From the NCBI GenBank assembly GCA_016192145.1, contig JACPUT010000010.1, positions 1 to 40,156 on the forward strand: 40,156 bases of DNA, in the 5' to 3' direction. The notes under the pieces are model-generated. The model was not told the DNA's origin and did no database searches. It saw only the letters and a list, made by a program, of their open reading frames with translations. Each line of letters begins with the position of its first letter. Position 1 is the first letter of the stretch. Shown here in pieces: positions 34,436-36,365 of this stretch. A program made the translations under genes and the position numbers. This stretch comes from Acidobacteriota bacterium (GTDB taxonomy: Bacteria > Acidobacteriota > Holophagae > Holophagales > Holophagaceae).

Positions 34436-34517
34436 GCGGGGGGACCGCCTGCTCGCCTCGCTCGCGACGTCCCCCCGCACCCCCACTCCTGGCCCCGGCG
34501 GAGGCAGGACCAGGAGT
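34436..34517 (+). terminator. Two consecutive hairpins after kinase 2
   Basis: GCGGGGGGAC (34436-34445) pairs exactly with GTCCCCCCGC (34469-34478), and ACTCCTGG (34485-34492) with CCAGGAGT (34510-34517). The first begins 6 nt after the kinase 2 stop. No T-run follows either stem, so Rho-independent termination is uncertain; they may protect the 3' end of the transcript. Confidence 0.5.
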
Positions 34518-34558
34518 CCCGTTCAACTTCGACCATGGTTCTGCCGTCAGAGGACCAA

Positions 34559-34826
34559 GGAGCCTGTCTACGTAACCGAAGGGAGCCGCGTTGAAACCAA
34601 AGGGGCCTCAGCCAAGGAGAACCGCGCAGCGCGATGGGGGTCCATCGTGCAATCGGCTCGACGCTGGATCAGGCCCCTTTGGTTTCAACCCTTCGGGCTG
34701 GGGCGGCGGCCGTCGCGCCCCGGCGTTGGCCTCCCTCAGTGGTGAACCGCACCACCTTCGGTCGGCCGCCTTGGGGAGCTCGGCCGGCGCCCCAGCGCGG
34801 CCCTTTCGGTTACGTAGACAGGCTCC
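34559..34826. repeat. 268 bp structured element with perfect 22 bp terminal inverted repeats and nested hairpins
   Basis: The termini 34559-34580 and 34805-34826 are exact inverted copies (22 of 22), each containing TACGTA; with small gaps the arms extend about 10 nt further inward. Inside are an 18 bp perfect stem (34591-34608 with 34671-34688) whose loop holds a 9 bp stem (34629-34637 with 34642-34650), and a second domain closed by GCTGGGGCG (34697-34705) and CGCCCCAGC (34788-34796) with inner GTGGTG/CACCAC (34739-34744, 34750-34755). This is a three-way-junction layout. It contains no credible protein and ends 3 nt before the kinase 3 start. It may be a MITE-like mobile repeat, a leader RNA controlling kinase 3, or a structured RNA. 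Confidence 0.85.
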
Positions 34827-34829
34827 AAA

Positions 34830-36365
34830 ATGAGGACCCGCATCGGCAAGTTCGAGATCCTGCGCCCCCTGGGCAAGGGGGCCATGGGCGAGGTGTACCT
34901 CGCCGTGGATCCCCTCATCGGCCGGCACGTGGCCATCAAGACCATTCGCGGGGTGGAGGCCGAGGGCGCGGAGGCCCGGGGCCGCTTCCAGCGGGAAGCC
35001 CAGGCCGCGGGCCAGCTGAGCCACCCGAACCTCGTGGGCATCCACGAATTCGGCGAGGATGACGGGCTCCTCTACCTGGCGATGGAGTACGTGGAGGGGG
35101 AGGACCTCGAGAAGCTCATGGCCCGGGGGGGCCTTCAGCCGCAGGAGCTGCTGGAGGTGCTGGCCCAAGTCTGCGAGGGCCTCGCCTATGCCCACGGCAA
35201 GGGCGTTCTGCACCGGGATATCAAACCCAGTAACATCCGCGTGGTGAAGGAGGGCCAGGGCCTCAAAGCCAAGGTGATGGACTTCGGCATCGCCCGCCTT
35301 CACAACAGTGAGCTCACGGGCACGGGCACCCTCCTGGGCACCTTCGGCTACATGGCTCCGGAATACATCCAGACGGGCAAGCCCGATCCGCGCAGCGACC
35401 TCTTCGCCGTGGGCGTGATCCTCTATGAATGTCTGGCGGGGCATCGGCCCTTCGAGGGCGACACCACGGCCACGGTGCTCTACCGCCTCGTGCATGAGGA
35501 ACCCGAACCCCTGGATCTGAGCCGGGTGCAGGGGGTGAGCGGCAAGCTGGGGCAAGTGCTCTCCGTGGCCCTGGCCAAGGATCCCCGGGCGAGGTACCAG
35601 GGGGGCGGGGAACTGGCGAAGGCCCTGCGGGAAGCCAAGGATCCCAATTGGGGCGGCCCCGACTTCGACCGCACCATGGCCGTAACCAAACCCGCGGCAT
35701 CAGCAGCCCCGCCCGCCGCTCCGGCCCCCGGCTCCACCCGCCCCATGGCCGTCCCAGAGCCCAAGGGCTCCAAGGTGCCGCTCGTCGTGGGGGCCGTGCT
35801 GCTGGCCGGAATCGGTGGCGCAGGTTACTGGTGGACGACGCGGCCGAAGGTGGTGCCCACCATCAGCCTGCCGCCCCCCGAGGCGATCTCACCGGAGCTC
35901 CCAAAGGCGACCCCCGAAGGTCCGAAGGAGAAGTCGGGGGCTCGCCCCCGGGCTCCGCGACCTCCGGCGAAGCCGGTCGATCCCCCGCTGACGGAGGAGG
36001 AGGCCAATGCCTGGCTCAACGAGGCGAACCTCGGGCTCGTGGACACGCCCGAGCAGAGCCTCCGGCGCCTCGAGCGGGTGATCCAAGACCACCCGCTCAA
36101 TCCCCGGGCCCGGGCCCTCCAGTTCACCGCCCTCTACAACGCGGGCCACTTCGAGCGCCTCATTCCGGCCCTGGAGGGCGCCAAGGAAGCGGGGGTGCCG
36201 CCGCGGCAGCTGCTGGCCTTCACGCCCTTCAAGGAGATGCTCCTGACGGAGAAGCGGGAGCACCGGCTGCCCCCGGCCGTGAAGGAAAGGCTCGCCGCCG
36301 AGTTCCCGGGCCTCGGACGGATGGGCCAGCGCCTGAAGCGGCCCATGGGTCGGCCGAACTATTAG
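34830..36365 (+). CDS. Membrane-anchored Ser/Thr protein kinase, kinase 3
   Basis: A 511-residue Hanks-type kinase, most like kinase 1. It has Gly loop GKGAMGEVY at 15-23, Lys37, HRDIKPSN with Asp130, DFGIAR with Asp151, and GTFGYMAPEY. After an Ala/Pro linker comes one membrane helix (PLVVGAVLLAGIGGAGYWW, about 317-335), then a Pro-rich stalk and the C-terminal TPR-like module (VIQDHPLNPRARALQFTALY, then LEGAKEAGVPPRQLLAFTPF) outside the membrane. ATG 34830 follows the 268 bp inverted-repeat element by 3 nt, and the only SD-like bases (AGACAGG) lie inside its right arm, so translation may depend on how that RNA folds. Confidence 0.93.
   Translation: MRTRIGKFEILRPLGKGAMGEVYLAVDPLIGRHVAIKTIRGVEAEGAEARGRFQREAQAAGQLSHPNLVGIHEFGEDDGLLYLAMEYVEGEDLEKLMARGGLQPQELLEVLAQVCEGLAYAHGKGVLHRDIKPSNIRVVKEGQGLKAKVMDFGIARLHNSELTGTGTLLGTFGYMAPEYIQTGKPDPRSDLFAVGVILYECLAGHRPFEGDTTATVLYRLVHEEPEPLDLSRVQGVSGKLGQVLSVALAKDPRARYQGGGELAKALREAKDPNWGGPDFDRTMAVTKPAASAAPPAAPAPGSTRPMAVPEPKGSKVPLVVGAVLLAGIGGAGYWWTTRPKVVPTISLPPPEAISPELPKATPEGPKEKSGARPRAPRPPAKPVDPPLTEEEANAWLNEANLGLVDTPEQSLRRLERVIQDHPLNPRARALQFTALYNAGHFERLIPALEGAKEAGVPPRQLLAFTPFKEMLLTEKREHRLPPAVKERLAAEFPGLGRMGQRLKRPMGRPNY

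Follow-up and report, generated by a model that had tools for sequence, protein, structure and literature searches.

Here, we identify a 268-bp segment directly in front of a Ser/Thr protein kinase gene as one copy of a new mobile repeat family whose members are folded and non-coding. The segment occupies positions 34559 to 34826 of the window, i.e., the whole 40,156-nucleotide stretch of Holophagaceae DNA that was analysed. We consider it likely that the family is a non-autonomous, MITE-like DNA transposon that is defined by a conserved fold and not by its end sequences. The family is MITE-like by its terminal inverted repeats (TIRs), its target-site duplications (TSDs) and its mobility, and it is set apart from MITEs by a conserved DNA junction and by the lack of a transposase among the types tested. 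No Rfam family scored above its gathering threshold, and the literature searched, the coverage of which was incomplete, held no matching description of the element. A private riboswitch was considered and rejected, the segment being one copy of a transposon-like repeat.

The window copy is read arm A first, and all features given here lie on the forward strand. Its terminal arms (34559 to 34583, GGAGCCTGTCTACGTAACCGAAGGG, and 34802 to 34826) are 25 nt long and 96% complementary; they contain the exact 22-nt inverted termini that the initial annotation had described. The stem formed by these arms is extended by GCCGC (34585 to 34589) and GCGGC (34797 to 34801), and the right arm reads ...GACAGGCTCCAAAATG. 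Arm A is a long hairpin (34590 to 34689) with an inner stem formed by 34590-34614 and 34665-34689 (92% complementary), and its apical motif, CAAGGA..GCGCAG-hairpin-CAA..GACGC (34603 to 34676), is recognized with 74.9 bits (E 1.2e-20) by R1, a covariance model built from the arm A tip. Arm B (34698 to 34796) forms the second stem-loop domain, with a stem between 34694-34712 and 34781-34799 (89% complementary), and gives a weak R1 match on the minus strand (34712-34782, E 0.23). The inner stem and the second domain had thus both been recognized correctly from the outset. The layout had been taken for a three-way junction; its stems are all present, but the junction has a fourth, small turn, CCCTTCGGG (34689 to 34697), which follows the pattern CCC-NNN-GGG and is invariant in 36/36 aligned sequences. 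The minimum free energy of the element is −194 kcal/mol versus −123 kcal/mol for shuffled sequences (z = −14.3), and 0/200 shuffles were equally low, in agreement with the earlier view that so many nested stems are unlikely to arise by chance.

The same architecture recurs throughout the family. Aligned full copies are non-coding, 265 to 287 bp long, and have in common a terminal stem of ∼22 to 31 bp, two long arms and the CCC-NNN-GGG turn between these arms. Run against arm B, the arm A model gives opposite-strand matches with E values down to 8e-11, and it does so also in Alphaproteobacteria (E 3e-7 and 9e-7). By these matches, arm B is the reverse-complement homologue of arm A, and the two arms represent a single hairpin motif in opposite orientations. 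Conservation of the core extends over two phyla, and the ends vary among subfamilies. Deletion derivatives of the repeat were also observed (L240 and L242 in G262, L243 in G014 and L288 in G060); they include copies that have lost arm B and retain perfect TSDs, a copy consisting of the terminal repeats alone and, in G060, what remains of a right end. Separately, the arms of several copies (L035, L037, L044 and L233-L237) contain small, inserted secondary palindromes, some of which share a TATCG..CGATA hairpin.

A MITE-like repeat was one of the two readings in the initial annotation, and it is this one that is supported, as the element is multicopy, has TIRs and TSDs, and is missing from empty sites in relatives. 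In blastn searches, the window element found additional copies in its own genome and matches in 12/60 genomes searched, all in the same family, Holophagaceae. R1 detected 18 copies in the own genome (E < 1e-6) and matches in 59/77 Holophagaceae genomes, with a maximum of 58 copies per genome and with Geothrix as the main genus among the carriers. Other Acidobacteriota families contain weaker multi-copy matches (E 1e-5 to 1e-9), most of which adopt the same fold. A GTDB-wide pattern scan added matches in Alphaproteobacteria. Among these, copies from a MAG, from Tistlia consotensis and from a Rickettsiales MAG score E 2e-18 to 2e-11 and have the complete architecture with different ends and TA flanks, while the remaining alphaproteobacterial matches are weaker or partial. 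Five pattern matches outside the Holophagaceae (L337, L343, L349, L355 and L368) look like chance and were set aside. Plasmid blastn gave no match for the window copy or for L338; with L366 as query it gave a single Nocardia match, which apparently lies inside coding DNA, has no model match and was likewise discarded. The pattern scan of viral contigs gave no match.

Several lines of evidence support that the element moves. First, queries made by joining the two flanks of a copy were compared with 47 genomes of the genus and detected empty sites in sister species, the clearest being CGCTAT-TAA[267 bp]TAA-AGG in G004 (L069) versus CGCTAT-TGA-AGG in G021. Second, of 122 copies with defined ends, 31 are bordered by perfect 3-bp TNA duplications and 33 have TA on both sides, and in G262 all five copies examined (5/5) have perfect TNA duplications. 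Third, for 68/114 copies (60%) the site is precisely the stop codon of a ≥100-codon ORF; this holds for 6% of control TA sites and 13% of control TNA sites. The genes concerned are mutually unrelated, and the stop codon is rebuilt by the insertion; in TA-type copies, the initial G of the element turns TA into TAG. Disruptive insertions may have been purged from these GC-rich genomes, in which TA and TNA are scarce, and this may be sufficient to explain the placement without targeting. The window copy itself does not lie at a stop codon, and its flanks (CCAA/AAAA) allow a target duplication of at most 2 bp, AA.

The way in which the fold varies bears on whether it acts as DNA or as RNA. Across 36 diverse copies, double compensatory changes occur at 62/67 consensus pairs, 90.6% of cells are paired (versus 61.6% in shuffled and 34 to 42% in slid alignments), and one-sided changes are rare. 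Paired changes, nearly all of them Watson-Crick, keep the long arms complementary. In RNA helices, G·U is normally far more common than A·C. When 110 copies are folded with Watson-Crick pairs only, the isolated mismatches comprise 102 G·T and 98 A·C, a comparison that has no positive control alongside it. At consensus pairs selected with RNAalifold, itself an RNA folding program, the numbers are 80 G·T versus 51 A·C, and one pair supplies 15 of the 80. The orientation of copies relative to the gene whose stop codon holds them is 26:26. Since G·T hardly exceeds A·C and copies show no orientation bias relative to genes, the fold appears, from these sequence comparisons, to be maintained as DNA and not as RNA. 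Template-switch repair of palindromes can provide a selection-free route to complementarity that is restricted to Watson-Crick pairs.

The second reading in the initial annotation was a structured RNA, a switch or leader that would control the kinase by hiding its ribosome-binding site. The strong fold, the massive covariation and the start codon, which lies where the annotation had placed it, 3 nt beyond the element (end at 34826, ATG at 34830), would all fit such an RNA. By contrast, the lack of an Rfam family, the equal use of both orientations among copies at the stop codons of genes that are not related, the missing excess of G·U (102 versus 98), arms that are themselves inverted repeats, and mobility argue against it. 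Moreover, the SD-like bases that had been placed in the right arm are absent from it; the SD-like GAGGA lies outside the element on its left side (34550 to 34554), and the idea of a hidden ribosome site is therefore unsupported. We regard a regulatory RNA as very improbable.

The enzyme that mobilizes the element was sought among known transposases. GAG/GGG ends with TNA or TA duplications are typical of IS5-family subgroups, and the element has both such ends and such duplications. This makes it possible, although clearly less probable than the fold-defined family, that the element is an ordinary MITE, with an incidental inner fold, of an insertion sequence of the IS5/PIF type (IS1031/IS427-like) or of Tc1/IS630. 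However, DUF4096, DDE_Tnp_1 and DDE_Tnp_4 transposases were undetected in G004, G014, G036, G082 and G099, which have 11 to 58 copies each, while G006 has 54 DUF4096 matches and no copy of the repeat. The conservation of the core across phyla together with variable ends also speaks against an incidental fold. A lost or plasmid-borne IS5/PIF enzyme is possible for the host genomes. Mobilization of single-stranded hairpins by a RAYT (Y1) transposase, as for REP/REPIN elements, would be consistent with a mobile dimer of two inverted hairpin units, with the DNA-level fold and with the location at gene 3′ ends, where REPs also lie (PMC3733652). Y1_Tnp was undetected in G000, G004, G014, G071, G082 and most copy-rich genomes, chance could account for the lone Y1 locus in the vicinity of a copy (L199), and TSDs are present; these findings largely refute the RAYT reading, which we consider improbable. 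Altogether, the IS5-type DUF4096, DDE_Tnp_1 and DDE_Tnp_4 and the Y1 enzymes were rejected as general partners, as they are undetected in several copy-rich genomes, and clustering of neighbouring ORFs revealed no recurrent transposase.

The terminal-repeat pattern in G014 marks element copies and remnants, and the sole coding insert found is an IS110-family gene (PF01548, PF02371). At least three different copies, L273 (261-2136, G014:C16:72160-74035), L274 and L280, have an IS110-family element inserted in their right terminal stem, each at the identical position. The IS110 gene within copies raises the idea that the repeat is the non-coding end, i.e., the bridge-RNA region, of an IS110 element. 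But the three IS110-bearing copies are different repeat variants, and IS110 was thus inserted separately at one site; in addition, TIRs and a 3-bp TSD do not suit IS110. This reading is the least probable of those considered, and IS110 was rejected as an autonomous version, being present only as site-specific inserts in G014. IS621 inserts in REPs (PMC11208160), and the site in the repeat is likely a bridge-RNA target outside REPs.

Returning to the fold-defined transposon family, we suggest that the element would extrude as a four-way junction in supercoiled or single-stranded DNA, that a trans-acting enzyme could recognize the paired hairpin motifs independently of strand, and that this putative enzyme would cut at the terminal stem. 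Because no transposase partner emerged among the tested families, we can only infer this mobilizing step. More tentatively, and with some doubt, the family may represent a new class of structure-encoded DNA transposons in which the folded four-way junction, and not the end sequence, is the substrate, followed across Acidobacteriota and Alphaproteobacteria by an unrecognized enzyme and with stop codons as insertion havens.

In the window, the element is flanked on both sides by kinase genes (Pkinase, PF00069), and the downstream Ser/Thr protein kinase gene spans 34830 to 36365 (PF00069, E 2.5e-52). Right behind the upstream kinase gene, an inverted repeat, GGGGGGAC..GTCCCCCC (34440-34480), is possibly the terminator of that gene. 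The GAGGA lies immediately outside the left end, and without the element the sequence would read GAGGA-7 nt-ATG, in which the spacing is normal. Judging from this spacing in the sequence, the insertion probably split a pre-existing kinase start site, separating GAGGA from the ATG. A closed terminal stem could reunite the two in the mRNA, again with 7 nt between them, and this copy may influence translation of the kinase locally.

As a rule, small mobile repeats are recognized by their sequence. In this family, stems and ends turn over but the architecture stays fixed in both phyla, and DNA shape seems to be the inherited and recognized trait. Covariance-based searches can find repeats that sequence searches miss; strong covariation alone, as a warning, does not prove an RNA. 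Near-identical copies (G014, G262), sister-species empty sites and a transposase to be hunted make the family a testable system.

Compared to known systems, the element resembles bacterial MITEs (PMC10969869) in being short, non-coding, multicopy and intergenic, with TIRs, target-site duplication and a stable stem-loop, but it differs from them in that its inner fold is conserved and covaries across two phyla, its ends differ by subfamily, it is GC-rich and no parent insertion sequence was found. It shares with REP/BIME/REPIN elements palindromic units in inverted dimers at gene 3′ ends, and with CGTC-REPs the lack of a known transposase (PMC3733652). In contrast to REPs, which are units of 20 to 40 bp with GTAG or CGTC tags, it is a fixed four-way junction of 265 to 287 bp with TIRs and TSDs, and RAYT is undetected in most of its hosts. 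Its arms are ∼100 nt long, and the alignment contains no unit of the CGTC-REP type (20 to 40 bp with a CGTC tag followed by an 8- to 9-bp stem starting with AT). GAG/GGG ends and a TNA or TA duplication, as in the element, are found in the IS5 family (IS1031/IS427 groups) and in PIF/Harbinger Tourist MITEs; the element is distinguished from these by its elaborate conserved core and by copy-rich genomes in which IS5/PIF transposase is undetected. Finally, the T-shaped terminal repeat of parvoviruses (AAV) consists of an outer stem and two back-to-back hairpin arms in DNA. This likeness is one of shape only, as the element is a chromosomal interspersed repeat with which no related gene was seen.
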